From positions 18,042,001 through 18,106,000 of the forward strand of contig OU612072.1 in assembly GCA_914767715.1 (NCBI GenBank): a DNA stretch of 64,000 bases. Reading direction: 5' to 3'. Made by a program: the position numbers and the translations under genes. The stretch comes from Membranipora membranacea. Its lineage: Eukaryota > Bryozoa > Gymnolaemata > Cheilostomatida > Membraniporidae. This document shows, in pieces, positions 19,290-60,500 of this stretch (positions are counted from its first letter, which is position 1; every line of letters starts with the position of its first letter). The notes under the pieces were generated by a model, which worked only from the letters and a program-made list of their open reading frames with translations, ran no database searches and was not told the DNA's origin.

Positions 19290-19587
19290 GTAAGTCATTT
19301 TATATGCGTATGTTAAATCCAGAGGAATACCATTCACTGAATGATTAAGTAGCTCCCCCACCCTTCTTGCATGATCTATTTATTTAAGTTAGTAAGGAGC
19401 AATGAAACTGCTTGATCAAAGCACCAAATCAGCTTATTATTCTATACATTTTTTGCTACTGCCTGCTGCAAGGTTGCAACCAGTAGCCAGTATTTAAAAA
19501 TGTTCAACAACAAGTTGCATCCAAAATGAAATGAGTTTTGGTTTTTACAGCTCTGTCTTGATTTCATTGACTTTTAGAATAACAGAT

Positions 19588-22500
19588 ATGAGTATGATGG
19601 CGTTGTCGTTTAAGAGTCCACCCATAGTCAATCCGCTGCACACTCCTCAGAGCCCTATGATGGCACCACCAGCCAGGGAGTCGTGTTTTCTCTGTGAATG
19701 CCCGAGGATGCCGTGGACAATGCTCAGAGAGTTCTCCGAGCCCGTGTGTCGAGGATGTGTGAACTATGAGGGCAGCGATCGTATCGAAGTTATCATCGCA
19801 CAAGTAAAGCAACTCAAAACTAACGTTCCAACAACTCCGACTTCTAAAGCTGCTGCATTTACAACACAGAATCCATTCTTCAGTAAAAACATAGCAGCGG
19901 TTAATCCCCTGCAAAAAAGTGCTCCAAGCACCCCTCAGGATAAAATACCCGCTAATCTGCTGCCAAAATTATCTCAGGCTAATGGTCTAATCACAGATTT
20001 TAACTTTCACAAAGACCCCATGCCATCTCCTGCTGCTTTACTACATCAACATAGCAGAGATACAATGCCTAGCCCGAGTATTCCACCACCAGGAATGATG
20101 GATTTCTCACGGGGGTTCCCACCTCCGGCCCCAACTCATGCAGCATTAACACCTACAGGACCTCCACCACCTCAGTTGATGTCTCCAGCTGCAAGTTTAG
20201 CCTACAGGCAGGGTAAGTTAACATAATCATCCTCCCCTGCCTCTATAACTTCACTCATAAAATAATCCAACCTTTAGTCTGAGAATCTGGCCTTATAAAA
20301 TAAGAAGTATTTATTTATCAACACATAAAGCAAAAGGGGTAGTGTAAGTTAGTATCCTAAATATAGCAAAAAACTTTCGATGACCAAAATAACGTGACAG
20401 TGACACCGAAGTAGATGACACCAGCTATCGGAGTTATTGGTCGGTATATGATGATCTACCGGCACAATTTGCCATGGTTGTCATTATAATACTAAATACC
20501 ATAGACAGTTGTAATAATTTGCCCGCATAAAAATCCTGTTATAAACAGTCTTGACACTCTTGTGGTTCTGGCCGATTCTTCATATAGTTAACTATTATTG
20601 TGCATGGTAATGACAGATTGGTGCGACATGACGTCACATTCTCTGTCAATTTAGGAGTTCATGTTTTCAAACAAATGAGATTCAGCGATGCTCATGTGCC
20701 AAGACCCTCAAACAGTTCTAGGCAAGGTGGCCCAAAGAGTGCAGTTTTGTCATTTTGATAAACATGGTATCATGACTTCTCCTGTCCTCGGTATGAGGGG
20801 GTAGCATATGCCCCTAAACGTTTTTGTTCTTGAGATAGTATCCTTGCCACTACTGCCACGATAGCAATGTCATGCTCTTAGGCTAGCTAGCTAGGATGAC
20901 AGCATTGGTACTACAGGATAGGTATAAGAGTTGAGCTGAATGACAGAGTATAAAGCGATCATGCCATATTGGATGATTCATAGAAGCTACCACCACTAGC
21001 ACTCAGTAAACAACAACATGGCAGTATATATACATCTCAGCGAATCACACTGCCTGCCTGTGGATAGCCCCATACTATGTAAGGGCTCTATCGCACAACT
21101 GTCCGACAAGCGACATCTTTTAACTCATTGGTCCAATCATATTTATACCTACATTCATTAATATGAATATATATATATATATCAGTACCTACATTGCTGA
21201 CAAATGCAATAAATAAGACTTAATACTGTAATATTGGTCAGTTTTGCGTAGGCCAAGTCTGTGAACCAAAGAAGATGCTTTCACAGTATTAAGAAATTAT
21301 AGCGCCGGAATTAGCGAAAGTGATAACTAATATACAATTGACCCCGGCCCTCGCTATCTCATTAAACTCTGCTAATCACAGAAGTGTCAGCACCAGATGA
21401 TATCTGTCCTCTAGCAAACACGGTCAACAAAACAGGAATTTTCCCCCTAATATTTCCATGCATCATGACTATGTGTGGGATACACATTAGACTTAATTAA
21501 TTAACTTGAGCACTTTCAGCGCAATATCATCTTCAAAGTTGAACTATTCCTCATATTCACAAAAAAAACCAGAAATTTCCAACCAAACTTCCGGCAGTTT
21601 ATAGTTATTTTATGGCGTGTGAACAACAGATCAATCTACACAAATTCAGTTCGCTCTCCTCACAACCTCCGGAAACTTTTCAGTGAAGTCAAGGAGTAGC
21701 AAAACATGCATGCTTGGGTACAGTTTTGGCTTGATCAACATACTTCCAATTCTCTATCTCTACCTCCATGTTGACTAGCCCATAGAGTAAACAGCCATAT
21801 CGTTTTAAAGAATGTGGGCTCAAGGCCAATGTGGTGAGGATTGCCTGGTGTTTTGGGTCCTGTTACATTTATTCCCAAATAAATCCAGACGACAGAAAAG
21901 TGAAGGATGATTAATTCAGTGATCAGCTTAGTGGCCTTGCTGCAAATGGATATGGTCAAATAGAAAACTGAGATTTTCTCCGCACAGTTTCCATCCTTAT
22001 AAATCTGACGTGGTTTTAGCAGAGCCAGTAGGGTAAGTCCTGTATGGTCTCGTGATGAGAATTTCATGTGAAAAGGTTTAGAATACCATTAACTATTGTG
22101 ATTATTGCCATACAGTGTGAATCATACTTTTGAGGTATTATTATTTTTTCAATGCCTGGTTTTTATTCTATTCGCTGAAAGAGACCCAGTAATTTATTGT
22201 CATTTGTAGGGCTGTATTAAATTCCTTTGGCTGATCAGCTTTTTAACTCCCCACTGGACAATGTTATGAAATGTGTATGAAATCGCACACCCATCAATTA
22301 TAAAGTCTGAGGTATGATTCACCAGTAAACAATAGTTACAATGCATTCCTACGAGATGATTGGCCTGTTTAGTTCTTGTATTATTGACTGTGCGTTTTTA
22401 GTAGTTAGATGGGCTTTTTCGGTGCTCATTGTGGTCAAGCTTTATCAGAAGTGTTGTGGGATAGATATCTTGTAGGAAAAGTTACCTGTGATGTAGACAG

Positions 22501-25500
22501 TAGGCCTCACTGGGAAAGGCTGAGGAATGTACCTCACCAATTCATTGATCACCTGGTCAGCTTAGAGCCTGACAATGTTACAATATTCTCTTGTACAAGT
22601 GGGAGGTTCTGTGGGGGGAGGGGGATTCTAGACTTTTTAGTTTGCGGAACATAAAATTTGCTTTGTTATTCACCACTGGACTAGAACATTGTATCATCTT
22701 GAGAATGTCTGTGTGCAATGAGTAGACCGCAGCCCAGCCACAATATGGTGGCCTCACTCAGTGCAAATTGTCAAAACGTTGAAAATGTCTTAACATGGGG
22801 CTTTTGAGGTTGTGAAGATCATTCTTACAATCTGCTACACCATCTATGGGGTCACTGATCTGTTGCTGATCTATATATAGCTTTCTCGCTGCTGCTCCCG
22901 CTGGCCTTGGTGTAGTGCTCGGTGTTATTTACGCCATCAGTTCATGGTCATAAGCTATCCTTTTAGAAGTTGATGGAGAAACCACCCTGTTAGTGATGTG
23001 CATACTACAAAATTTGTTGTATAAACTCGGGCTGGAAAATCGAGGAATGAGGACTTAATGCATATCCTCAACTCTGTTCTCATATCTCACAAATATATAC
23101 CTCAAACTCTACCCCTAACTCATATACCACAAACTCCTTTTCAATTATTTTTTTTACAAGATTATAACAGGATTACAGACAAAATGGAGATAAGTTTACT
23201 CTAATCTACTGTCACCTTAAACTCTGAGATAAACAAAAACATCAAACTATGAGCCATCTTGAGGGATTAGACTAATTCCTATCAATTCACTTATACTAAG
23301 GCTTGAAGAACCGAGACTAACCATGAGTTAGTGTCCATTTTGTAAGGAACAAGAAATCACCATGATGGATGACTCGCTGTTTTACCTGTCCCTCAGTACT
23401 CAGGTATTGCAGGACATCAGATATTCTTTTTACTAACACCTGATTCAACTACCTGACATTCTCAGGTGTTAGTAAAAGGAAGAGACAGAGTGAGTGGCAA
23501 TAAAATCAAACTGAAGCTATTTCTAAAGCCCTTTATAAACATAAGAGGAATATTTCTTCACCTTCCCCTCTATATCACATGTGACTGGATTATAACCGAA
23601 TCATGACTCAACTTCAGCATTTCGTAAGCATACTTAGCAGTCTCTCAGAGTTACCCTATGCTTAAAGTGATGCCATGAGTGCTGTTTTGTGAATCAGCAC
23701 TTTGGTTGAGCCTTCATCTTTCCTGAGGGGATAATAGGCTCAGTGATCGTCCCTTTTTGTAAACTGATATCAAAGCTTAGCTTGCTTTTGAAGTTGTTGA
23801 CGATGACTCATGGTCAATGTTGAAGCCTTGAGATCTTAGAGAAATAGTGTAGATATGCAACAGGGAAGTTTTACACAGTGCCTGTTTTACAACCTGTCTG
23901 GTGCAAATAATAAAAATAAGGCGTGAGCAGCATTTTCGTGAAACATTTCTCGTCCATAATGTTCATTTTCATTTACCTCCTTTCATCTCCAAAACATCAA
24001 TTTCTCTGTTTTGTTGTTTTGATGATTCAGTTCCATCAGTTTCAGCATGGTGACTAAGACACCGATAACAAGATCTATTTCTCATTGATCTTTCGAATTA
24101 TATCAGATTGTCAGCGCGAAGGAATTATTCTCAATCGTTGATAGAAGAGTTTACTAATGATCCACAAGGGACAGTCACCGGAGGCCACACTTTCAACTTA
24201 CAAATGCAATATTCAGTTATGTATTATAGATTTTCACATCGAGGTCAATGTCTCATCGTATTAAGGGGATGAGGGTGTATCATTTTGCCTGGCCTGTCCG
24301 ACATCCAGCACTCATAACCAGCACTCATAACCATTCAGACAAATACCTCACCCTCTATGGTTCTCATTTTTACCACAGCGCTTATTCAATCATTAATTAA
24401 CAATCTACCTTGTAAGGGTGGGTCAGACCACCACCCAGCTTTCATCTGTGAGATGATGTGTAGAACTTGCTGCTGGTATGAATCAGAGAATGGGCTAAGG
24501 CCAGTCATTCACTGCTAGTAATGAGATCAATAGCCACAAGCCTCAGTCAATACTACTGTTATTACCCAATTCCTTTCACTAACTCTAGGCTTAACCTTGC
24601 TTAGGTAGCCAATATTATGTGGTTATTTCAACGTATCCTTCTACAGGACAGTAAATAAACCTAGGATAATTATACAAGCAATTAGCTGCTGCGCTTGAGA
24701 TTATCTATTTTTCTATAACTCTGGCATTGATAGCAAATTATTGCCTATAATTATGGGCAGCAGTCAGCCTTAGATTCCCAACTGATAAATCTCAACACAT
24801 CAAAGTTGATTGACCCCAGTGCTGCTTCTGGCCTGCTACAGAATAACGCATACTCGGGTCAACGGCTCATCAAAACTCTCTAGATTTGGAATGATGTGTC
24901 AGAAGATGTGAAGTTGATGTACCGGTAGTCACTCTTGCTGCGAAAATGTGGCGAGGCCCTTACTGATGCATCGATATGGTTCTCTTTGATACTGGCACAT
25001 GAAACTTTGATGATTTAAAATTTCATGCTTCGGGATATGGCTTGTGAAACGACAACTTGATTTTAATCAACCATCAACCAAATATTTAACTAGGTAATAC
25101 TAGAATGCAATATTCAGCCCAAAACTTCACGACCAGAACTTGAAAATAGACAGGCTGTCAAAATATTCTGAGGTACGCAATCTTGATAAAATGTCTCTCT
25201 CCAAAACAAAGACCGGCAGGATCCTGAAGAGTACTGGAATGCTTTGATCTTAAAGTCCTAAAATCTTGATCATCAAGATAGCCCTGATGAGTGCTGAGAC
25301 ATACGTACGATACACACTTACGAAAAGCATTAAAACTGCCTGCATTGAGAGAAAACATGCTAACCACATATAATTGATGGAGGATTCCTCACTCCCCCCC
25401 CTCCCCAACCCCCTTCCCTACACATCTGAAATGTTTCATTATTTTAAAGCATCAGTAACAACTAACTGGAATTCTGGGGCTCCCGGATTTACTGATAACT

Positions 25501-28500: not shown

Positions 28501-31500
28501 CAAGACTTTAATAGTTAGGGGTAGGGGTGGTGGTGAGCACCCCAACAGAACATTCAAGATTTATTTATAGAACCTCATAAACAGGTAGTGTCCAAACCCA
28601 AATAACAATAACTTATTTAGTCTGGGTCTGAACTATGGAATTAATTGAGTCATGCTATTTTAAGTTTGTTGATTGAAGAGAAAGTGTTTGATGTTCAATT
28701 CCATGTGACACAAAAACTTGTCTTTTAAAATCGTTGTTTTGCATCTGATTTTGTAATCAGCAATAAAGCTGCGAAATTTGAAAAACAACTGTCACAAAAT
28801 TCATCCTTGCAAAAATTTCCTTGTAATTATAGCAATGGGCTCGCATTACATGGGAACTTGAGATTTTTCCTGCACTTGAAAAGGGACAGCATATAGATCT
28901 CCCATGTGTTGTGAGCCTATCTGAAAATTGTGGCAAGTTTTCTAGTATTTTGGAGAAGTAATATTTTTTTGCACATGACTTGATATTAATGTTGGGTTTT
29001 TATGGGTGTGACACGACATTAACATGACGGATGACATTCATGAGCAAACAAGAATTTATGAAAAAGAACTTTTCCAAGAATTCATGCCAAGAGAAATCGG
29101 CAGTACTAAATCAGAGCAGGATTTAGGCAGTCCCTGACTCATGGCCCTGAGTTTGACCCGCTTAAGTCACTTTTGGAGGGTCATTCTTGTAGTATTTATC
29201 ACAGTATATAACATCTCTAGCTAAAGCAGCCAGTCTACAGGAGTTTAGGGATAGTTAGGCATTAGTGCTCTGGTATGCCATTAATCATACTGATGAGATA
29301 ACATTTGTGCTGATTCATCGACTACAACCAAAGATATCATCCCTACAACAACACAATTAGTGTTAGATTAACAATCACCTTATCACACAAAAAATGGTTG
29401 AAAATGAGGATCTGCAGTGCTCGTAGCAAGCGATAGTTCTAAAAGCCTAAAAAGGTGCACAGGGCATGGATTCTCACTCTGCGCATGTGCGAACTGTTGA
29501 GGCATACGTTCGTCTCTGCAGCATAGGGCCTGAATTAATTCACCTAAACTGAGTACCCAAATCAATTGAAACCCACAATTTACAAAAAATGGAACACTGG
29601 CTTTGATATCTCATAACCTTGAACTCTGGGAGTTGCCTTTCTTGATGGGAGGCAGCTCCACCACTGCTGTGCTGCATTGATGACTATGTCACAAGGCTAT
29701 TATCCTGCAAGCAGAATGATAGATTCTTAGGCGTGGTGTAAAAATAAAATGACGCAGTTGACAGAACCACACAATTACAGGAAGTGTGAAAATTAATCGA
29801 ACATTGAATCTGATCATCAAGTCTTTGCCAAGCAATAATGCAGTCCTGTCATAGCTTTAGGACCTTAACCTCTCTGATAACCGACGCTTCCGTTCCCGAT
29901 ACACACATTCTCCACTGAAGCTATGTTGTCTGCAAGGGGAAGAGTCAGCATTAATTTTCCATTGATAATCTCTCATTATTTGATTGTGCTCCGGGCCTAT
30001 TAAACACTGTACCGTCAAACAATGACTGAGTGTTAGGTGGGATGTCATGTCATGTGGGATGTTCTGTGCATGTGTTAACAGTTTGGTAAACAGAAGGACA
30101 GGATGTGTTTGCCACCACGCCTTGGCCTTCATACGTAAACGACAACCTATAAGTGTAGATCTGTAATTGCGATTATGTTCTTTGGGTCGAAAATGCTGTT
30201 AGTGCAGCTTATGAAAGTTGTTGTGCTTTGTAGAGGTGACTAATTGTTGATTGTTGTTCTCTCTTTAGGTATTATAGCTGCTAGAATTGCTGCTGCGAGT
30301 GCTTGGGCTCAGAAGATTGGCACGCCTACCTCAGGAACTACTCCTTCCTCCTCATCTACTAGTGCAGTCAGTGAAGACTCATCCTCTCCTGGTACTCCGG
30401 CGGAGGAATACAGACCTATCACCACCTCACTTAATCTAGATTACTCCTCTAAGGTGAGAAAATATGAACCCAACTTCGTCCGAACCTGGTCACATTGCTT
30501 TTGCTAACGATAGTCAAAATCTTCAACAGCGGATTTGATATAAATATGAACTGTTCCCTCACCAGAGTGCTCAGCAAGAAAGCTGCAAAAAAAGTCCACA
30601 GAGTACTAACTTACAATATGATGACGGTTCAGACGTAGCCAATAATTGGGATCATAGAACATGATCGGTGATATACAGACCGAGGTGTTGTTATTAGCGC
30701 AGTTTGCACAATGTAACAGTCATTCACACCAGGGAGTTAGGGATATATGTTCACACATAGGGCTAGAATGTTTATCTATTTTTCTCTTATCATGCAAGTA
30801 CACCTCACTTCTCTGCTGTTGAGGGATAGATGGAACAATTATTAAAATTCAGTCCGATTGTACGTTTATGAAATAGCACAATTTCAAGTAATGCACAATA
30901 GCACCTTAAGTTGTCTGCTCTTGAGGTTGAAAAGACAACTTGTATATCATTTCTAAAATACTAGGTAATTGTAGTAATCGTGTCTAGTTGAGCCAGATAC
31001 AATTACAGCAAACATTAGCTTGGTTGTACTGTAGAAGGTCCTACCTGACTGTTTTCACTACTAACCACAATCCTGTTACTGCAGACATCAGGTTGTATAC
31101 CAACATATACTACAACAGATGGTATGAATTTGATAGTTTTGCTCGCCTTTATTACCAGAATTAGATTTCAAATCTAGGTTTTATCTCACTAAGATGACTG
31201 CATTGACTCATGGTCTCATGTTCTGTTTCAGCCCCCACATGTTGTGCAGGCCCTACAAGCTTTGTCCAGGGTGATGCCATTTGAGGTTAGATTCAAGAAG
31301 TGCCATACAGAGAAAGGTCGAGTATTTGCTGTCGATGCCAGCCTGAAGACCGGTACTGACTATGATCTAAAGCTTTACATCGAATATCCTCTTGGATCTG
31401 GCCAGGTAAGATAACAGGCTAACAGACAGACCTTACCCAGGTCCATTCTATTTAAGACTATCCATTCTCTGCATTATGATGTCACAGTCTCCCGGAAGTG

Positions 31501-34500
31501 CAATACAAGAAACAAGCAATTCCGGGAGACTGTGACATCATAATGCAGAGAATGGGAGGTATCTTCCTTATGCGAGGCACCTTTTCCAGTATCAATATTT
31601 CATGCCAAGTAGAGCGTTGCATTTTTTACCATGCAAATCTCACAAAACTTTATCATAAGTGACTGCCTGGCTATAACATGCTTTGGGAAGTCTTTAATAT
31701 GCGTTTTCTTGTCAACAAGTAAACACTGAGGCTAAGGCTAAGAAAGAACAGAAACCGCTAAGATCTTTATTTCAAATAAAGATCTTCAACCAAAATAACT
31801 CATCAGCTGTCACAGTTCTTGAGTGTGAATCAATTTTCTGTTCCTGGTACCAAGTGAGACGGAGGATTATTTTGGTAGGGCCGTTTGGGGTGTGTCATGT
31901 GTGATATTGTGTCACATACACACCACAGTGATTATGTGTACCCAGATAAGTGTGGCCCTCTGTGGTAAACTGTCTGTCCACATTAATCCAGACCCACATC
32001 CTCTTATATGGTTAATACAACAACCAGCCGCCGTATCCAGCCACATAATGTTATTTGTGTCTGTGCATTGATAGCAAACAATATCAGATAATCGAGCTGC
32101 ATTTTTGTTTGAAACATTGATAAGCTAAGCAATGATTCATGATATTTTGTCTCAAAAACTTCCTTTAATTCAACTTTTTTACCTTCTTGATGGTTTGTCC
32201 TTCAAACTCTCCTCCCCCCCCCCCCTTCAATATCTAACGTATTGAACATATTTCCAATACTTTGGGATGTAAAAAATTTGAATTCAGGGAAGCTTTTGAA
32301 GCATAATATATATCATGAATAATTGCTTAGCATATCAGAGTTTATAAAAAATCTTTAACCAGCTCGGGTTATCAAAATAAATGAAGATTATCACTTTTCC
32401 ATTTATCTCATTTGTATCGCACATTTTCAGGTTTACACATCAGCGTCAGGAGTAGCTAAGCAGATGTGCAGAAACTCTCTTAGGGAGATGAGTCGTCCCC
32501 TCTCCTCAGGCTTTAAGTATCTCGAGTACGAGCTGCAGTCTGAGAAAGGAGACTGGAGGTTAATAGGTGACCTTCTACCAGAACCTGTCAGATCGTTCAA
32601 GGTCAGTAAGAGCGCACAAGAAACTATTATAAGACTTGCAAAATTAAATAGATGTTTGCTAGAACTGTTTGGATGAACCCATGATATTCTTGATAACTTT
32701 AAACGGATCTTGCAAAATTGAACTTTATTTTTTATCGGTAGAGTAGAGAGTGATATGACAAACTAATTTAGTGTTTACTAGAACTGCTTGGATTAACCCA
32801 TGATATTCTCGAATAAATTGGTAAACTTACGATTATGAGAAAAGAGGTTTTAAGCAGCTTATATAAAAATAAAGAAGTGATGCTAGGACACACCCCAAAG
32901 ACATAAAAGGCATAAAAATCTGGCAATATTTTTAATATTTAATGTATCATTTATCTGTTACAGGAGTGTGTGAAGGAGGACCTGTTGCCTAATGCCAGGC
33001 TGGATCCTAATTATCCTACGCTGCCTAAGTTTACCATCAACCTGTCCTCACCCCTGGACGTGACGTCATCACCTCTAAAGAGAGTCAGCAGCTTCGGCAG
33101 CGGTGGAGACACAAACAACAACAGTACAGGATCACCTATCACAGCAGCAGCTAAGAGGAAATCTACAGAATGTTATCCTGATATACCAGGATTTCCTGTT
33201 AGTAAGAGGTTATCTGCAGATTCACCTGCTGCCAGGAGACCTACTAGTTTGACTCTATCGATGCCGAGCCCATCTCATCAGCAGCCTCTGCAGAGAAGTC
33301 CATGTAAGTCCTCAGCAGTAAGTCCTCAGCAGTAAGTCCTCAGCAGTAAGTCCTGAGCAGTAAGTCCTCAGCAGTAAGTCCTCAGCAGTAAGTCCTCAGC
33401 AGTAAGTCCTCAGCAGTAAGTCCTGAGCAGTAAGTCCTGAGCAGTAAGTCCTGAGCAGTAAGTCCTCAGCAGTAAGTCCTCAGCAGTAAGTCCTCAGCAG
33501 TAAGTCCTCAGCAGTAAGTCCTCAGCAGTAAGTCCTCAGCAGTAAGTCCTCAGCAGTAAGTCCTCAGCAGTAAGTCCTCAGCAGTAAGTCCTGAGCAGTA
33601 AGTCCTCAGCAGTAAGTCCTCAGCAGTAAGTCCTCAGCAGTAAGTCCTCAGCAGTAAGTCCTGAGCAGTAAGTCCTGAGCAGTAAGTCCTCAGCAGTAAG
33701 TCCTCAGCAGTAAGTCCTCAGCAGTAAGTCCTCAGCAGTAAGTCCTCAGCAGTAAGTCCTCAGCAGTAAGTCCTCAGCAGTAAGTCCTCAGCAGTAAGTC
33801 CTCAGCAGTAAGTCCTCAGCAGTAAGTCCTCAGCAGTAAGTCCTCAGCAGTAAGTCCTCAGCAGTAAGTCCTCAGCAGTAAGTCCTCAGCAGTAAGTCCT
33901 CAGCAGTAAGTCCTCAGCAGTAAGTCCTGAGCAGTAAGTCCTCAGCAGTAAGTCCTGAGCAGTAAGTCCTCAGCAGTAAGTCCTCAGCAGTAAGTCCTCA
34001 GCAGTAAGTCCTCAGCAGTAAGTCCTGAGCAGTAAGTCCTGAGCAGTAAGTCCTGAGCAGTAAGTCCTCAGCAGTAAGTCCTCAGCAGTAAGTCCTCAGC
34101 AGTAAGTCCTCAGCAGTAAGTCCTCAGCAGTAAGTCCTCAGCAGTAGATTCTGACCCCCAATTTCACACTAGGAGCCATTCATAAGAAATATATTGGTTT
34201 TTAGCATTTCTAAACACCAATATATTTCTCGTAAATGGGTCCTAGTGTGAAATATGGTGTCAGAAAGGGAGGCTGAATTGATGTCGAGTTTAATTTGACA
34301 TGGTGTGACCAGTTTCTCTCACTTAACTGGTTTTGAATTCCTCAATCTGTGATATACTGGATTACAAGATAAGCTGAATGTTTGTCCCCGGAACATCGGA
34401 ATCTTGTGAGCGAGAGAAAAATTGGTTTATACCAGTTTAGGAAAGCTGAAATTATTGCTAAATCACTCGGGCTACCGTGACATAATTAGGCTGATGTCAT

Positions 34501-37442
34501 TCTGAAGTTATAAAACATGACAGGCTGGTCAACATTCATTGAGATTGATTTGAATAAGATGGCATCAAATTTAATGTTTGGCTATATGTGACACTTCTGT
34601 ACAAGCTAGAAAGTGGTCCTCTATAATAATTCTATATGTAAATCAACCCTGTGATTTGAAATGGAGAACAGCTAAACTATTAGCATCTATTTTACAAATT
34701 TGACAGTACCTGTATTTAGTTACGGCAAATGGTGAATTAAACAACTATATCGAGATGCTAATCTTATATCAAACGTATAAATTCCTGTTTTATCAGAAAT
34801 TAATAAGCAGTGACTCAGCCCAATGCCTTTGTTAGAATTTTAAGGACCGTGGTTAATGATTTGTGTCAGTGAGAATCATTTCTCCTTGTTATAATATTAC
34901 CTGCTTCCTGGATTCTAATCTGGATAAAATTAATGATCTTCTCAGTGATGAGTCATACTTTATCTGCTTCTTGATGCATACTTTACATGTAAATTCACAA
35001 TTAGCTAATCATTATTCACCAAGTGAACCCAAGCCTAACTATGAAATGTAACGAATGGCTAAAGAAACAGCAATACACCGTTCAATTCTTCATTTCAAGG
35101 CTCTTGCAATTTTAATATGATAAAGATCTTAGGGCCTAAATCGCTTCTAGTTGAAAGATATCATGATGTGTCAGATGTATAAACATATAAATTTATATGT
35201 TTATGGTTAGATTTCATCTCTTTCTGCAAAGCTGAGACTTTTCATGTTGTCAAAATCATATCCTGATTCTGGATGGTGCAGAGAGTGAAAATTCATTTTT
35301 ATATAGAAGGAAACTGTTTGCCTCTGATTCATAGAACGAAAAAATGTTTTGTCACTCTTTCAACATAGTAAAAAAAAGTTTATTTCGCCTGAAATTTTTG
35401 TCTAGGCACGATTTACAGAATAACAGCTCAATTTTACATTATTCCCTCTCACTAGATAGATAGATATTAGATAGATATTAACTTTATTCATCACCGATCA
35501 ATGCAACGAGGGCAGATGAGATTAGGGCAAATGACACTAGAGTCGCAGACATTTGTGATATTTTGATTTGAAGTCTTATTTATATTTTCTGTTTGTAGTT
35601 GGATCGACGAGTTCACTGCCACCTCCGACCCCTACAAATACTTATCCTCTCCTCTCACCTCAGGTAAGCAGAGAGTGACAAACTGTGAAATACCATAGAG
35701 GAGTGTAATGTTAGCTTGTATTAAATTCAGCTAGTTTGGGAGAGTGACTTAATGTTAGCTAGCACGACATTTTTGCGATTTTAGAGATGTGCGAACAGGC
35801 AAAATTTTAGCCCTGCTAATACTTAACTCTTCTGTGGTACCAAGTGCTGTAGACACAATAGCGACAATTTTAACCAGGACTAAATATTCAACAAGAGGAT
35901 ATTGCAAGAGTATCAGTTGAAATAAGCAAAAGTATTTTATAATGTAATGGATAAGAGCAGTTGTCCTCTCCTTGACATATAGAGGACAACTCCCGTGTTG
36001 TTAAAAATTATGTGATGTCAGCAAATAGTAATTAGCAGAAGTGGCCGAAGCACAAAGCAGTTTATTGATCTGAGATTGTTAAAACCTCTGAGTATCAGAT
36101 AAAGGTGGCCAGCTTGTAAGCCGTGTAAGCGATATAAGGCTTCAAACCAACTGATATAATAAATAAGTAATAGGACTAATGACATTCAGCATTGAACCAT
36201 ATCATAGCTAAATACGGTATAAAGTCAACTCTCTCCCAATATATTCATTAGGAAAACTTATGGTTGACATCTTCTAAACAATATATTCATGATACTATCA
36301 TTATCTTAATATGTGGCCATTTTAATATAATTTTACTACACATGCATATTGACATGCAATTTCGCAAACCTAGTGTATAGGCCTACTGCACTGTAGCTTA
36401 TAATTGTGATGACTTTATTTATGCTATTATACTTAATCTATTTCATAATATATTGTATCCGTTACCGAATATTTATGTATATGTATATTCAATATATTTA
36501 ATTTATTATATTATATTTGTATTTTTGTATTCACTATTATTATATAATTATATATATTGCAGAGATCACCCGTATATAATAACATACAGAGACAGACAGG
36601 TAGCCCACATGAGTCAGCACAGTACGGAGAGATTATGAAATGTTACCTCTGCTGCTCACAGCTGGAGGACACACACTTTGTACAGTGTCCAGCAGTGACA
36701 GATCACAAGTTCTGCTTCCCCTGTAGTAAAGATAGCATCAAACAACAAGGTATGTTCATATCTAGACTAAGTTTGATTCATTTGCCTGCATTCCAGTTGC
36801 TCCCCTCCCAGCCGCAGCCTGCATTCCAGTTGCTCCCCTCCCCGCCGCAGCCTGCGGTGGACCAGTGGAGGGGCAACTGGAATGCACATGGATTAAACTT
36901 GATCTAGTTTGTATATAGATCAGTGGTTGATTTTACCTTTTAGGTAGAAAAGATTTGGGTTTTCAATTTGGATATTCTGCTTTTCTGTACGAGGGTTATG
37001 AAATAGTCTGTGTTTTTTTTAATCATTTAAGTTATCAACTGTGTTCAGATATGTGGCTATCTGAAAGAAAACTGTGATACTGTGCCATCCCCCTCCCCTC
37101 TTCCAATTTTCAACCTGCTCAGGCTATAACAACGCAGCCCATCTTACCTACTACAATTACTCATCATCTGCATTGCACTGATGCGTTTTATATGGCACTA
37201 ATTGTGATATTTTGTGTTTTCTAGGAGCGAAGACAGAGGTGTTCTGCCCGAGTGGTAAGAGGTGCAGACTGAGCGGTAATAATACTGTGCCGTGGGCCTT
37301 TATGCCTGGGGAGATTAGCCAAATACTATCTACGCAAATACCACCTAAATATAGATATGATAGAATCAGTCACAGCCAATCATTGTCCGAGGCTCGAAGG
37401 GATTCCAACAGGAATTCCAGGGAGAAAAGCATCAGCCCATAA
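19588..37442 (+). CDS. IRF2BP: Interferon regulatory factor 2-binding protein (IRF2BP family)
   Basis: This is a nuclear transcriptional corepressor; vertebrate members bind the C-terminus of IRF2. Coding exons: 19588-20212, 30269-30453, 31232-31405, 32431-32601, 32964-33303, 35599-35663, 36563-36749, 37225-37442. All phases agree, giving 654 residues. The N-terminal IRF-2BP zinc finger has C33, C36, C54 and C57 in the hallmark context [20 protein letters not shown]. Exons 3-4 hold the conserved middle block ([33 protein letters not shown]). Exon 5 and part of exon 2 are Ser/Pro-rich and disordered. Exons 7-8 form a C3HC4 RING (C547, C550, C562, H568, C571, C574, C590, C596) with the family signature [10 protein letters not shown], ending in [11 protein letters not shown] chose the first ATG after the acceptor; M3 and M4 are alternatives. 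Intron 1 is about 10 kb. Oddities: a 60-copy donor minisatellite opens intron 5, and a foldback element sits 13 bp into intron 7. Vertebrate paralogues have few or no introns. Confidence 0.95.
20213..30268 (+). other. IRF2BP intron 1, no second gene seen
   Basis: This ten-kilobase intron runs from donor GTAAGTT to acceptor CTCTCTTTAG. I see no embedded gene. It holds a retroposon 3' end (26053-26155), a short AGCATC/CAG repeat (about 25718-25743) and an inverted repeat around TACTAACACCTGA...TCAGGTGTTAGTA (about 23432-23476). Open frames inside it show no recognisable domain. Confidence 0.6.
26053..26155 (-). repeat. Retroposon 3' end with microsatellite tail, copy 1
   Basis: On the minus strand the segment ends in AATAAACC followed by an ATCCATCT-type tail. 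On the plus strand it begins with GATAGATAGATGGATT and continues to AAAATCAGGTCTCTGTGGT. The second copy at 51304-51412 shares both ends. A short tandem tail is typical of some invertebrate LINE/SINE 3' termini. The class is inferred. Confidence 0.55.
31455..31703. repeat. Palindrome plus half-copy of foldback family D
   Basis: An inverted repeat (CTGCATTATGATGTCACAGT...ACTGTGACATCATAATGCAG, each arm about 38 bp) is followed by sequence matching the right half of the element at 44748-45027. Shared blocks include GAAACAAGCA, TCATGCCAAGT, ATCATAAGTGACTGCCTG and CATGCTTTGG. The left arm of family D is replaced here by a local inverted duplication. It lies 50 bp into IRF2BP intron 3. Confidence 0.7.
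31760..31786. repeat. Short palindrome AAGATCTTTATTT...AAATAAAGATCTT
   Basis: A 27-bp near-perfect palindrome in IRF2BP intron 3, centred on a single unpaired base. It contains BglII-type AGATCT cores in both arms. Function unknown. Confidence 0.6.
32214..32225. repeat. Poly-C run of 12
   Basis: Twelve C in IRF2BP intron 3, about 205 bp before the exon 4 acceptor. Confidence 0.85.
33304..34146 (+). repeat. 60-copy 14-bp minisatellite of splice-donor sequence
   Basis: The unit GTAAGTCCTCAGCA is repeated 60 times with no length change, then GTA. The first unit begins exactly at the 5' splice site of IRF2BP coding exon 5 (CCAT|GTAAGT), so every unit offers a consensus-like donor (GCA|GTAAGT). 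Only position 10 varies: 48 units have C and 12 have G (units 4, 9, 10, 11, 21, 26, 27, 45, 47, 52, 53, 54). The near-identity implies recent expansion or homogenisation. In the exon's frame, reading into the array meets TAA at 33333-33335, so retention would end the protein before the RING. Confidence 0.98.
34150..34266. repeat. Foldback element, family C, abutting the minisatellite
   Basis: The left arm TCTGACCCCCAATTTCACAC...AGAAATATATTGG and the right arm CCAATATATTTCT...TAGTGTGAAATATGGTGTCAGA are inverted copies of about 50 bp with a loop of about 15 bp. It starts four bases after the last repeat unit. No other copy was seen in the window. Confidence 0.8.
35178..35204. repeat. AT palindrome CATAAACATATAA type
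   Basis: AACATATAAATTTATATGTT is a perfect 20-bp palindrome, extended on both sides. Its arm matches the arm of the hairpin at 57485-57537 (CATAAACATATAA). It lies in IRF2BP intron 5. Confidence 0.55.
36763..36906. repeat. Foldback element, family A, copy 3
   Basis: It starts TAGACTAAGTTTGATTC and ends ATTAAACTTGATCTA. The left arm carries a tandem duplication of GCCTGCATTCCAGTTGCTCC with flanking bases, so it is longer than the right arm. It begins 13 bp inside IRF2BP intron 7, right after the donor GTATGT. A late insertion so close to a working splice site is unusual. Confidence 0.8.
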
Positions 37443-43975: not shown

Positions 43976-46900
43976 TCAGGCCTCAATCTCATCACCTTCC
44001 TCGATTTTACTCATCGGAGACTTTCTAGACTTCTCTTTCTTCTTGGACTTTTCTTCTATTAAATCAGAATCGTTATGAACTTTAGGCGCATACACAAAAA
44101 CAACAGACCAACCAGAACCATTAATGTTGATTTTGTTTCTCTGATCAATTTCATGAGGGAATTTGATGAAGGTGTTTTGATCCGTCACTATCACACACAC
44201 TGTGTAGTCTTTATTGTATTTTCAAACTGATTAAAGGGGAAACGGTAAAAAAGACTGGCGTCATATATACCTTTGCAAGGGCTGCTTTTGGACCCACATT
44301 AATGCTGACCAATCTCTATATAAAACACCTGACATTGACACATGATAAGAGCTCTTATTGTATTAATACCGGAAATCAAATTCAAACAGAAAAGTTAATC
44401 AAGTTTTAAGCTTTCTGCGTCAAAATTGGGCACAGCGTTTCTGAGAGAGGTTAACAAATGATAATTAGCTGCAGGTACACAGGTACTACAACTTACTTTT
44501 GCTCTTAGAGGACTTTTTCGACTTCTTTTTCTTAGTTTCTGACTGCTGCTTAACTGGCTCTCCCTCACTCTCTTGTGGAGGAGGTATGTTTAGCACGATA
44601 TCAGCATCTTCTGGTTGTATGTCTAACTTAGACTTACTTACTCCTTTCTTCTTCTTTTTCTTCTTCAGTTTTTTAGAGTTGGTTTCCGGGTTATCCTCAT
44701 CAGCGACAATCTGCATGAGATAATATTAAATCTTAAAGACTTCCGAAGACCATTGCATGCTATAGTCAGGCAGTTACTTATGATAAAGTTGTGTCAGATT
44801 TCCATGGTAAAAAATTCAATGCGCTACTGCCTACTTGGCATGAATTATTGATGGTGGAAAAAGTTCCTCCCAAAAGGGAAGGTGCAAGAAACAAGCACTT
44901 CCAGGAGACTGTGACATCATAATATAGATAATTCATGCCAAGTCAAGTAGAGCATTGAATTTGTTTACCATACAAATATGACAAAACAAGATCATAAGTA
45001 ACTGCCTGACTATAGCATGCTTTGGTCTTTGGGTAGTCTTTGATCATTTTCAAATGAAATTGTCAAGATTACCATCATGGTAACATTTAAAAAGTCACAA
45101 GCACCTAACATGTAATAATCACGATCTTCTCTAGTTAAGATTTTCTCCATGGGAACACTTGATTTGAAATTTGGATTTTGTGGGTCAACTGAAGGTCAAC
45201 TGCTGACTTTCCTATTCTCTTCACACACTGTGGCCCAACTTCCTTACAGTATCACAGCATCAGTGATTTACGATGGTCAAAGATTTTACGGGCACCGGCT
45301 AGCCAGGTCCTTGCGGAAAGGCACTAAAAATACAAAGGTCCACTGTGTGTTTGCACGCCCCACACGCAATAGAAAGCACCCACTATGCGTCTTCAATATA
45401 GATAGTAGCCTGGTTACCGGCGTGTATGGCTATAGGGTGCGGCATGAGTACTGTGCGTCCTAGTGCTGTACCCAAGAGAGCATAACTCCGATTCAAAGAT
45501 AATGATAGGCAGAATTGTAGTTGAAATACCCAGCTTCTTTTCTTTGTAAAGATAATAAAGATTCGACTCACTGTGTGTGGGTGGTCTCTGGCTTTGTGCC
45601 GCTTGTTCTTTTTACTTTTGTCTCCGTCATTTTTAATCTCCGAGAAGTTATTCTCCAGGTCTAGTTTGGTGACCGGCGTGATCTCCTTACTGCTCGATGC
45701 TGTCGCTGACTGGAATATTGAGGACAGAGTTACACTAGGGACAAGGGGTGATCAGGGCTCTCCCTTCATTCCTACTACAGTACTCAAAACCAGAAATCAA
45801 AACACTTATGCGCAAAATGATCGATCGGATTGCAAGAAAGTAATTCAGTGGTCTTTTTATCTCAAGGTCTTAGACACTCCTGGAACCCTTCTAGGTGTGA
45901 TGGCTCAATCTTGTTTTTACAGCGGGCATTGCGTTTGACATGAAAGTTGAAAATTACGCTCCAGTCATTCATTGAGCTCCAGTCATGTCCAAGTCATGTA
46001 CGGGACAGCCTTACCTTGAGTCGCAGTACAGCTGACCTCTTAACCTCACAGAACTTCTGCAGTAGGACACTCCCCTTCTGCGACTGACCTGCTTTGTTGG
46101 TAGGTTTCTTTTTCTTAGACAGGCAGGCATTCAGGCAGCAGCAGAAAATAACCAGGACAGGAATTCCTGGTAAAACAAATAATGGACAGAGGGGTTACAA
46201 GAATTAAAGAGCTCATCATGTGTATGGTGGGGCTCCCTGTGTATGGTGGGGCTCCCTGTGTATGGTGGGGCTCCCTGTGTATGGTGGGGCTCCCTGTGTA
46301 TGGTGGGGCTCCCTGTGGATGGTGGGGCACTCTGTGTATGGTGGGGCTCCCTGTGTATGGTGGGGCTCCCTGTGTATGGTGGGGCTCCCTGTGTATGGTG
46401 GGGCTCCCTGTGGACGGTGGGGCTCCCTGTATATGGTGGGGCTCCCTGTGTATGGTGGGGCTCCCTGTGGATGGTGGGGCTCCATGTGTATGGTGGGGCT
46501 CACTGTGTATGGTGGGGCTCCATGCTTATTTTACAGAAGATTGAACATTAGGTGTTTTGAAGTTAAAGAAGAAATTTGGTCAGTTTGAATGCAACCTGAA
46601 AAGAAGTATTTCCCATTTTGAGGCAACATTGAAGAGAAGACCACCTTCATCGACTAATAAGCTTTTGCCCAATGCTGGCTCAGTTTTTTTTAAGATTTAG
46701 GTTCAGTTTTATGTCCAGTCTATTATTCTGTTTTTTATTCAATTTTTTTGAAGATGACAATTTTAAAATTTAAGATTGCTCTATTTTTCTCCGAAGTAAT
46801 TCAAGTCAGCTTTGTGTGCAGAGAGCCCCTATGGTATTGGACAGTTTTGAATGATACAATATGGAGAGACAAACTTGGCAACAGGAATATAATATTTGAT

Positions 46901-51412: not shown

Positions 51413-51477
51413 AATGTTTAAAAAGTATATTGTTTAGTGCAAGTATCAGATGTCGTAAAAAGCAGTCTCTTTGAAGC

Positions 51478-52419
51478 ATGTCTTTCGTGAAGAACATGAG
51501 TGTCTGCGGTACAGGATCCAGCCTGGATATTGAGGATGTATGTCTGGACAAACCTACCGAACAGTTGTCCATCTTTATAGCTGTGATTGTACTCTTGACT
51601 AATGGAGTACACTTTAGCTGCCTCCTCCAGCTGCGTACTCAGAGAGTTACTGTATTCTACACGACTCTGCAAGCATCGGCCATACTGGACTTATGCACAC
51701 CTGTCTCACTTATTCTGCATACTACCTGCGGCGTGCGTCTCTTCACCGTCATTCAGCACCCCTCTCTCTGTATCCTTGTGACAATCGCCGGCTCTACTGT
51801 TTTATACTTGAAGAATCTTATCATAGTGTTTACTTTCGTTGAGCGCTGGCTGATATTGGCGCAACCGTTTCAGTACAGTAATAATATTTTTATTAAGCGA
51901 TACAATGTATGGATTTGCTTCGCTGCTATTTGCTCTTTTGTACTGAGTGTAACGACATATATGTTTCCTTATTTTTACGAATCTGAGGTTTGTTTTGACT
52001 CGGGATACGGAGCTTTAGGCGTACAATCAGATACATATTACATAGTTCTCTTTCCGCTTTTCGTTGTAAGTGTGGCTTTGATACTTTTTTCTCTACTATT
52101 TTTTCATGAATATCTGAAAATGCGTCGGCGTCACATCCTAACCGAGGAGGATACAATCACCCGTCACGCCTGTGAGTACGTCCTCGCCTCTACTATAGCT
52201 TACACAGTGTGGGCGTGTCTAGCTATACTCATCTTCATACTAGCTGAGGTCGGACAGAATCTCAAGCCGTGGGTACTTATAATTATACCAGTACACGGTA
52301 TGTGGAACATCATCGCTCTGTATATATGGCTTAAGTCCTACCGAGATAAAATTAAAAACCTATTGAAGAAATGTCTACAAAGAGGTGCAGTCTTAAATAG
52401 AGTCCATCCGACAATATAG
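51478..52419 (+). CDS. Rhodopsin-like G protein-coupled receptor, intronless, orphan
   Basis: A 313-residue protein with seven hydrophobic helices at about 30-51, 59-80, 97-120, 143-165, 186-210, 231-257 and 263-284. Family-like features: N-glycosylation site N6; TN in helix 1; LDLC in helix 2 (the D2.50 position); C98 at the top of helix 3, which can pair with C172 in the second extracellular loop; ERW (122-124) in place of DRY; basic KMRRRH at the start of loop 3; W245 with C247 in helix 6; PVHGMWNIIALYIW in helix 7, a diverged NPxxY; and an amphipathic helix 8 (SYRDKIKNLLKKCLQ). It is expected in the plasma membrane and coupled to G proteins. The ligand cannot be told. A single exon suggests either an intronless family or retroposition. 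The start is the first ATG. Confidence 0.85.
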   Translation: MSFVKNMSVCGTGSSLDIEDVCLDKPTEQLSIFIAVIVLLTNGVHFSCLLQLRTQRVTVFYTTLQASAILDLCTPVSLILHTTCGVRLFTVIQHPSLCILVTIAGSTVLYLKNLIIVFTFVERWLILAQPFQYSNNIFIKRYNVWICFAAICSFVLSVTTYMFPYFYESEVCFDSGYGALGVQSDTYYIVLFPLFVVSVALILFSLLFFHEYLKMRRRHILTEEDTITRHACEYVLASTIAYTVWACLAILIFILAEVGQNLKPWVLIIIPVHGMWNIIALYIWLKSYRDKIKNLLKKCLQRGAVLNRVHPTI

Positions 52420-57500: not shown

Positions 57501-60500
57501 TATAAACTTACTGTGCTTATATGTTTATGGTTACAACATAGTGACAGGTCTTGTCTCAGCTAAAGCGATTATTCTTCAAATGGTTATCATCAAAATATTA
57601 TTTTTGGTGCTATCCTTGCAATAATAATTGACATGATTGGTATTTAATCGCGTCAAATGTCAAGGTTATTTCCTCTAACTTTCATCAATCTGACACAGTA
57701 TCATTGCCTGTATTCCTCTCCATTTCCGCCCATGGTAACAAATGCTAGATATGATAATGAACCAGTTGGCACATTTGACTAAATATCGTAAGCTTTTTTT
57801 GAGTCTCATGAAGTTTCCTATATCCCTATTCATTTAGCCTTATCTCAAATACCTCATTGAAATAACTAAATATATTCATTGGCTTTCATAAGAGTGCAAA
57901 AAATCTGACCAGCATATGATTCATAGTTCTTGTTTTCCCTCTTCAGATTGCATATAACTTTTTGTAATTGTTCGGTCAAGCAGAGTTTAGTAAGGCACAG
58001 GTCAGGACTTGAGAGTGACTTGACTTTTCAGCCGAGTCGCTCCTCAATTTCCGAATTATACATGTCGCATCAAAGTTTCTGTGCAGGTCACAGCACTTGA
58101 ATTTTTAATACCTAAATTATGATATCCTAAACTTATATAATACAAAGCTTGTGTTTTGTAAAAAAAACTTTGATAACATACATCTTCCAAAACATCAATA
58201 TGGTATATAACTTAAATAAGTATAAAATTATGATGTAAACCATAATATGATATACAACACTAACTTATGCTATTCAGAATAAATTACTTATATAATATCA
58301 TAATATATAAGATCATATAATAGGAGTAGGAGGTAGCTCAGTTGGTTAGAGCGCCTGCCCTCTAATGCATAATGCAGACTTGCGATTTTAACCCACATTT
58401 TTTAAAATAAAAAACATAACTTACATAATAATATTCATCAATGAGCTTATGTAGTTTATAATAAATAATATTTAAATGAGTACATTATAGAATTCATATA
58501 TTCACACCACTTACCTGCGAGCTATCTCGTAGTAGGAATGTCCCCTCTGGTTTATCGTCTAACAAAGCCTCCGCCTCGTATCTGTCCATAATGCCCCAGT
58601 AAAACCCACAGTTAGTAATACTAGCTAGTCCTGGTACCAGATAGTGCAGGTAATCTACTGTGGTGTGTGCTCGTATCTGCAGCACTGAACTGATATCAGC
58701 AAAATCTCCGTCTTCTGTAACTATAGACAAGAAATTTGTGATAAAACACAACCGGGGGAGGTAAATCCTAATACATTAATTCCAAACGCTAATAGAACAA
58801 TATTCTACCAGCGATTGTAGTGCTAGATTAAGGCTGCTACATTGACTCTCTCTGAAGTATAGTATAGTATATTATAGTACATTATAGTACAGTATAGTAT
58901 AGTATAGTATATTATAGTACAGTATAGTATAGTATAGTATATTATAGTACATTATAGTGCAGTGTAATGTAGTGTAGTGCAGTTCAGTGCATTGCAGTGC
59001 ATTGCAGTGCATTGTAGTGCATTGTAGTGCATTGTAGTGCAGTGCAGTACAGTATAGTACAGTATAGTTCAGTATATTATAGTACATTATAGTACAGTAT
59101 AGTATATTATAGTATATTATAGTACATTATAGTACAGTATAGTATAGTATAGTATATTATAGTACATTATAGTACAGTATAGTATAGTATATTATATTAC
59201 AGTACAGTACATTACAGTACAGTATAGTATAGTATAGTACATTATAGTACATTATTAGTACATTATAGTACATTATAGTACAGTATAGTACAGTATAGTA
59301 CAGTATAGTACAGTATAGTACAGTATAGTACAGTACAGTACAGTATAGTATAGTGTAGTACATTATAGTATAGTATAGTATATTGTAGTACATTATAGTA
59401 TAGTATAGTATAATATAGTATAGTATATTATAGTATAGTACAGTACAGTACATTACAGTACAGTACAGTATGTTATAATATACTATACACTGTGGTTATG
59501 AAGCAGCCCGGAGTCTTTATAGGGTCAGTGTCAACTCAGTGATTCTCTCCTTCCAGCCAAACATCATAATGTAAGTAAAGTAGCCCAACTGATTTTAAAT
59601 TATCTAGTTCTCAACACAATCAAATATATGAACTACTGGTGGGGCTCCAAAGTCAGAGTTTTCACAACCTTAGAGGTGCAGATAGGGAGCCAAACATTTT
59701 GTAAGCGTGACGATTTCAATAAGAGGGGTCATCATTTAGGCCCACCATTTTACAGCACAAGCAAAGAACATCACAGATAATGCAATCGTTTGGCGAATTT
59801 TTGATATTAATGCATTACGAGACATCATGGAGTATATCATCATCAGTGTGATTTCCGTGCTACATTTTTTTATACAACACAAGGAAAAGTATAACAATGG
59901 AATTCTACTATCCTACAATAATATGACAGATGGAGCAATGAACTCCCTGTGTTAGTTCATTGGATGGAGTTACAGACTAAATAATTAGATTGCTTTTCGA
60001 AGGATCGGCATGATATAAAATTTGCATTTGCATTTATATTTTTTATAGCCCTATTATACAGTGAGACTGTCAACAAACCCTATATTATATTCACAGATGC
60101 ACCAAGACCTAGCTTTATATCTTTATTGTAATTAATAAGGTGATCATAATTAACATCACACATGTCGTACAGTCTTATAAATAAATTAAACAAGTGCGCA
60201 GGAAAGACACGCATAGCCTCAGCTCTTTGTATAATATTCCATTTATATGTAGTTATTGTAAATCACAGGGAAATAATTAAAATGGACAGCAGGCTAAGGC
60301 ATAATCTACACACACTGCACTGTCACTTAATATTGAGTTATTGGTGGTTGTCACAATTACAACATTGACTGATAGTCCGATGATATCGAGTTTCTAGCCC
60401 ACTCACCTTGTTGGGGAGGAGAGGCGCGGCCCATATTCATGACAGGAATAATCTGATGATTGTTGCCTGCTCCCGGTTGTACTGGGTTAGGGAGTGCAGG

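Follow-up and report, generated by a model that had tools for sequence, protein, structure and literature searches.

We found that intron 5 of an IRF2BP family gene opens with a 14-bp minisatellite of 60 units, and that the first six bases of the first unit are the 5' splice site of exon 5 that fits a protein made from the spliced gene. The gene lies in a 64-kb window of the bryozoan Membranipora membranacea; by the window we mean the whole of that stretch of DNA. Taken as a whole, we consider it probable that the array is a donor-anchored minisatellite that is mostly tolerated, and whose downstream copies would be weak landing sites for U1 snRNP.

The domains of the predicted protein place the gene in the IRF2BP family, in agreement with an earlier note on this DNA. 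All three parts of the family are present above the curated cut-off: the N-terminal zinc finger (PF11261; match at 19501-20223, E 3.9e-26), the middle domain (PF25457) and the C3HC4 RING (PF25454). The gene covers almost 18 kb of the window on the plus strand. Coding exon 1 (19588-20212) contains the zinc finger. Exon 2 (30269-30453) was read out from its splice sites and a protein match, and the middle domain is divided between exons 3 (31232-31405; E 1.2e-20) and 4 (32431-32601; E 2e-20). Exon 5 (32964-33303) ends in phase 1 (...AGA AGT CCA T) and is followed by a 65-nt coding exon (35599-35663; acceptor ...TTTGTAG, donor CAG/GTAAGC, the slash marking the splice junction). Exons 6 (36563-36749; E 5.5e-16) and 7 (37225-37442; E 5.8e-10) encode the first half of the RING, and its second half with the C terminus, respectively. 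In the intron that follows exon 6, a short repeat (36784-36855; 33-bp unit, 2.2 copies) begins about 35 nt from the exon and is followed by what appears by eye to be an inverted copy.

The best protein match to the gene model, P0001, is 652 aa long and is encoded on a 3,065-nt JGI contig. It supports each of the coding exons, starts at the ATG at 19594, and equals the gene model at 650 of 652 residues, the differences being at its residues 32 and 485. The source of P0001 is probably this animal or one very close to it. Because a 3-kb contig encodes the whole of an almost 18-kb gene, P0001 would be the product of a spliced transcript. Among the best 120 of 237 matches, the next was P0002 from the bryozoan Watersipora subatra, the nearest named relative (57%, 652 bits), and the remaining 118 scored at most 335 bits.

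P0001 fits a donor at 33304, in unit 1, and none of the other 59 copies. It reads ...QRSPF, and in the window the F codon is made of the T that ends exon 5 and the TT that begins the 65-nt exon. The segment encoded by the 65-nt exon, which starts at this F and includes a PPTPTN common to Watersipora, is present in P0001. Since the protein fits only if exon 5 ends at 33303, the exon 5 donor (CAT/GTAAGT, 33304-33309) would be that of the first unit, and Tandem Repeats Finder likewise starts the array at 33304. The statement in the earlier note that the authentic GTAAGT donor of exon 5 opens a 14-bp array was thus borne out. The note had treated exons 5 and 6 as direct partners and overlooked the 65-nt exon at 35599-35663, which is the true partner of exon 5. 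Joining exon 5 straight to 36563, an arrangement in which donor 2 would be in frame and donor 1 wrong, was overturned by the P0001 segment from the 65-nt exon. The evidence for the donor is a protein and not a cDNA read. The array may be shorter or absent in the animal that P0001 comes from, and we counted this against the preferred reading. At the place of the exon 5/65-nt exon junction, P0002 has the homologous stretch KSPYTSTQSLAPPTPTN, in which KSPYTSTQSL aligns with RSPFGSTSSL. Because P0002 aligns across the junction (as protein), the end of exon 5 is probably older than the array.

We defined the array (33304-34146, plus strand) with Tandem Repeats Finder and by cutting it into 14-mers. 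There were 60 exact units of GTAAGTCCTSAGCA, followed by GTA. The Tandem Repeats Finder row (period 14, 60.2 copies, 98% matches, 0% indels) had a score of 1602, the highest of the 21 rows for the window, and the previously noted 60-fold repetition without a length change therefore held. The general unit is GTAAGTCCT(C/G)AGCA, with 48 units of GTAAGTCCTCAGCA and 12 of GTAAGTCCTGAGCA and no further variation. GTAAGT is present in 60 of 60 units. Outside the array, it occurs 15 times on the plus strand and 38 times on the minus strand of the 64-kb window, and this scarcity indicates that the 60 in the array are not due to chance. The exact unit, in any rotation, was found nowhere else in the window; the nearest sequence, at 23061 on the minus strand, has one mismatch. 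The G-type units occupy places 4, 9-11, 21, 26-27, 45, 47 and 52-54. They are somewhat clustered (15 runs, where 10,000 shuffles averaged 20.2; p 0.039), as expected if a single mutation spread by local duplication. Because there are no differences beyond this one variable site, we infer that the array is young or was recently homogenised. A larger-scale duplication inside the array (offset 43, 17 overlapping units, one difference) was considered and is not established, because a repeated string of the observed length (15 units) or longer that included at least three G-types arose in 153 of 2000 shuffles. Scans of the window with Rfam (gathering threshold) and for tRNAs detected nothing, and a 22-base pattern had no matches in the viral contigs scanned, an uninformative result.

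Other repeats and open frames were seen elsewhere in the window. A 19-bp minisatellite of about 16 copies (46219-46521) has long frames open on both strands, one of which was scanned and had no Pfam match. A 10-bp minisatellite of about 62 copies (58856-59470) is located just upstream, on the minus strand, of an open frame matching SH2, and contains no GTRAG on either strand. A 314-aa open frame at 51475-52419 has by eye the look of a seven-helix receptor, with no Pfam match at E 0.01.

The left edge of the array coincides with the exon/intron junction. Leftward of the junction, beginning with 33303, there is no match to the unit in the first 11 bases, and 5 of 28 match overall. Homology to the unit does not extend past the junction into exon 5, which places the duplication seam at +1. 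None of the other six introns has a tandem copy at its start (best ungapped self-identity 0.48-0.50, periods 8-39). In the preferred reading, the first 14 bases of intron 5 would have been duplicated in tandem with the left seam exactly at the junction, and unequal exchange or slippage would then have expanded the duplication to 60 units. That the repeat grew from the splice site itself, as had been proposed, is the simplest reading of an array that starts at the authentic donor. Splicing would use the first copy to join exon 5 to the 65-nt exon, and the 59 other copies would leave with the intron. A unit with an exon tail would make each copy as strong as the original, so the seam at +1, which leaves the copies weaker, may explain why the array is tolerated.

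We compared the first donor with the other copies using a human donor matrix, applied here to a bryozoan sequence. Among the 211 GTs from 32964 to 35650, the donor at 33304 scored highest with this human matrix (5.48 bits). Array copies with GCA/GTAAGT, the exon-side context shared by all 59 downstream copies, took the next ranks at 2.45 bits, and nothing else among the best 12 rows exceeded that value. The first copy would be favored because it is the only one with exon-side pairing to U1 (C at -3, A at -2) and is at the real end of the exon. In contrast, the predicted U1 duplex energies do not separate the first donor (-5.5 kcal/mol) from the copies (-5.6 kcal/mol), so the case for the first donor rests on the exon-side positions and the exon context. 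The description of the 60 donors as nearly equal thus stands for the U1 energies and is not supported by the scores from the human matrix. Among the seven real donors, the first copy has the weakest U1 energy (the others range from -6.8 to -11.0), and it has T at -1 where the other six model donors have G; the lowest matrix score of the seven, 4.41, belongs to the exon 4 donor. Its predicted unpaired probability is 0.52, below 13 of the next 15 copies. The human origin of the matrix, the equal U1 energies and this accessibility were counted against the preferred reading. Between equal donor copies, splicing generally favors the intron-proximal copy, the one closer to the 3' splice site, so use of the most distal copy would be informative. 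The array had been suggested as a test of proximal-donor preference. The site that appears to be used is the intron-distal one, and the test would instead be against a preference for the donor nearest the 3' splice site.

We determined the frame consequences of splicing from each of the 60 donors (n = 0-59) into four downstream routes, 240 combinations in all. Four of the 240 were open. With n = 0, the 65-nt exon and 36563, the product is P0001; n = 0 is also open when the 65-nt exon is skipped and the acceptor is 36600, a possible in-exon site (ACAG/GTAGCC) that was considered for frame only and is unused in P0001. The third open route is from n = 1, the second donor copy (GCA/GTAAGT, 33318-33323, intron +15 to +20), skipping the 65-nt exon into 36563 to give 637 aa, and the fourth is from n = 2 with the 65-nt exon and the acceptor at 36600. 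On the true route, through the 65-nt exon to 36563, none of the 59 downstream donors works: splicing from n = 1 or n = 2 shifts the frame, with a stop after 549 or 534 residues, respectively, and 57 of 57 donors from n = 3 to n = 59 stop at a TAA within the array. The claim that every downstream choice shifts the frame or meets TAA is thus correct for the true route, but n = 1 with the skip and n = 2 with 36600 are open. Retention of one unit (+14) and loss of the 65-nt exon (-65) each break the frame, and together they remove 51 nt, or 17 codons, in frame.

The array has a counterpart in human ABCA7, which is linked to Alzheimer's disease. There, a VNTR in intron 18 directly follows exon 18 and supplies the canonical donor with its first two bases; it varies from about 12 to about 427 units and has a Tandem Repeats Finder consensus of GTGAGCCCCCCACCACTCCCTCCCC, starting GTGAGC (PMC5954066, PMC6857246). 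In both genes, the minisatellite comes directly after an exon, the GT of the first repeat is the authentic donor, and the unit starts with a donor-like hexamer (GTAAGT in 60 of 60 here). The array shares the structural layout of what we group as ABCA7-type donor-anchored VNTRs, and the layout is not new. The ABCA7 units are 25 bp long and GC-rich, with frequent substitutions and insertions, whereas those of the bryozoan array are 14 bp, nearly identical and of one length. The genes and the kinds of animal differ, and no homology is implied. PMC5954066 reports use of the second-unit donor in ABCA7, with one 25-bp unit retained, at 2 +/- 1% irrespective of array length, and skipping of the next exon that grows with length (3.2-fold between extreme samples, 4.1-fold between two alleles). 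If the bryozoan array behaved similarly, a small fraction of transcripts would retain one unit, with a frameshift, and some would skip the next exon. Leakage and disease association were measured for ABCA7, whereas the array here is known from DNA and one protein.

Two further systems resemble the array in part. The C. elegans CeRep25B minisatellite (PMC4039745) is tied to splicing decisions and located near alternative exons, but is a dispersed 24-base repeat with regulatory motifs and not a donor-anchored array. In human paralogs whose gene structure changed through tandem repeats (PMC2812944), internal repeats alter exon/intron structure, but the repeats are within exons, and the passages covered describe no donor array. 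A literature search combining minisatellite and splice donor site terms, which covered few subscription journals, returned no paper with four of its six terms.

The copies could also have a local effect on splicing. U1 binding in the intron near +17 to +20 favors the definition of PAH exon 11, which has a weak 3' splice site, and engineered U1 particles (ExSpeU1, PMC4822034) likewise aid exon definition. In PAH, where the variants are at +17 and +20, as in the array, where copy 2 covers +15 to +20, a U1 target lies a short way into the intron. PAH involves one site with an effect in a minigene and an exon made vulnerable by its weak 3' splice site, whereas here there are 59 sites, an effect by analogy, and a donor without G at -1. 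In the preferred reading the copies, just downstream of that donor, would be close to neutral or of slight benefit to the definition of exon 5. They may help locally, and we expect the array to be mostly tolerated.

A stronger, functional version, compatible with the preferred reading, is rather unlikely. It holds that a weakly structured array recruits several U1 snRNPs beside the T(-1) donor, thereby strengthening exon 5 definition or delaying splicing, with copy number tuning inclusion of the 65-nt exon. The copies start at +15, in the range where intronic U1 binding helps PAH, and the first donor alone among the seven lacks G at -1. The predicted minimum free energy of the array RNA was -85.5 kcal/mol (ensemble energy -124.4, centroid empty), weaker than that of every one of 20 dinucleotide shuffles, which averaged -124.0 kcal/mol (z +5.7). 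Of 150 arrays built from permuted units with the same make-up, 148 were more folded than the first 30 units. The weak predicted structure is modest evidence that fits an accessible row of GUAAGU, modest because the shuffles destroy periodicity and the unpaired probabilities of the donors vary (0.39-0.86 at the first 16). That variation also argues against a functional platform, as does the structure added by the G-type units. Pairing of CTCAG with CTGAG between units, considered as a source of hairpins, adds structure (-12.0 kcal/mol for 30 all-C units, -40.8 kcal/mol for the actual 30), and the whole is still weaker than the controls. Finally, the platform is putative, and the identity of the units is accounted for by the youth of the array, which has a single variable site, so that the presence of GTAAGT in all 60 is no sign of selection.

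The region just downstream of the array raised the question of a mobile element. Two nucleotides past the array there is a 117-bp palindrome (34149-34265, plus strand) with 56-nt arms that are 86% complementary and a 5-nt loop, which we take to be MITE-like. Mobile elements with internal tandem repeats exist, and the array and palindrome could together be one non-autonomous element that landed at the 5' end of intron 5 or took the place of that end, its first unit taking over as the donor. We consider this origin unlikely. The protein around the exon end aligns with that of Watersipora, the seam is located at the donor, and the 64-kb window contains neither a second full copy of the palindrome nor the exact unit in any rotation outside the array.

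A broader reading that joins several of these elements is distinctly unlikely as a whole. Donors would be recurrent birthplaces of minisatellites, and arrays with the seam at +1 would survive best, their copies staying weaker without exon-side pairing; the bryozoan array and that of ABCA7 would be two independent products. The array would also be a length-tunable U1 platform that links the choice of donor 2 with the loss of the 65-nt exon, two errors that together preserve the frame.

We regard it as very unlikely that an assembly artefact produced the array or its copy number. A single variable site in 840 bp is what such an artefact might leave, but the 12 G-type units are in an irregular order (15 runs), unlike a simple assembler loop, and ABCA7 shows that such arrays exist. 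Regulated alternative splicing, in which donor 2 (33318) and the 65-nt exon skip together would give a 637-aa isoform, is highly improbable. The sum of the two events (14 - 65 = -51) keeps the frame, the route is among the four open ones, and both kinds of event occur in ABCA7 (PMC5954066). However, CKSSA, the mark of this isoform, was present in none of 152 proteins (the best 120 of 237 matches and 32 of 32 in a second set), a weak test given that most of these are from distant animals.

A U1 snRNP sink, suggested in the earlier note, would be implausible and was rejected on arithmetic that uses the abundance of U1. On inspection, a minimal intron or recursive splicing within the unit (GTAAGTCCTCAG) was rejected, since the AG does not abut the GT, the unit lacks a pyrimidine tract, and gaining 2 nt would disrupt the frame. 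Protection from premature polyadenylation was also rejected; intron 5 has one AATAAA/ATTAAA in 2,295 bp, the lowest density among the seven introns.

Read as a donor-anchored minisatellite, the array would be a natural experiment on the choice of 5' splice sites, with sixty copies of one intronic hexamer that are alike apart from the exon edge and their position, and with the intron-distal one apparently used. The human ABCA7 risk VNTR would gain an independent counterpart in a distant animal. The two together suggest a rule that can be checked across genomes, that the seam is at +1.
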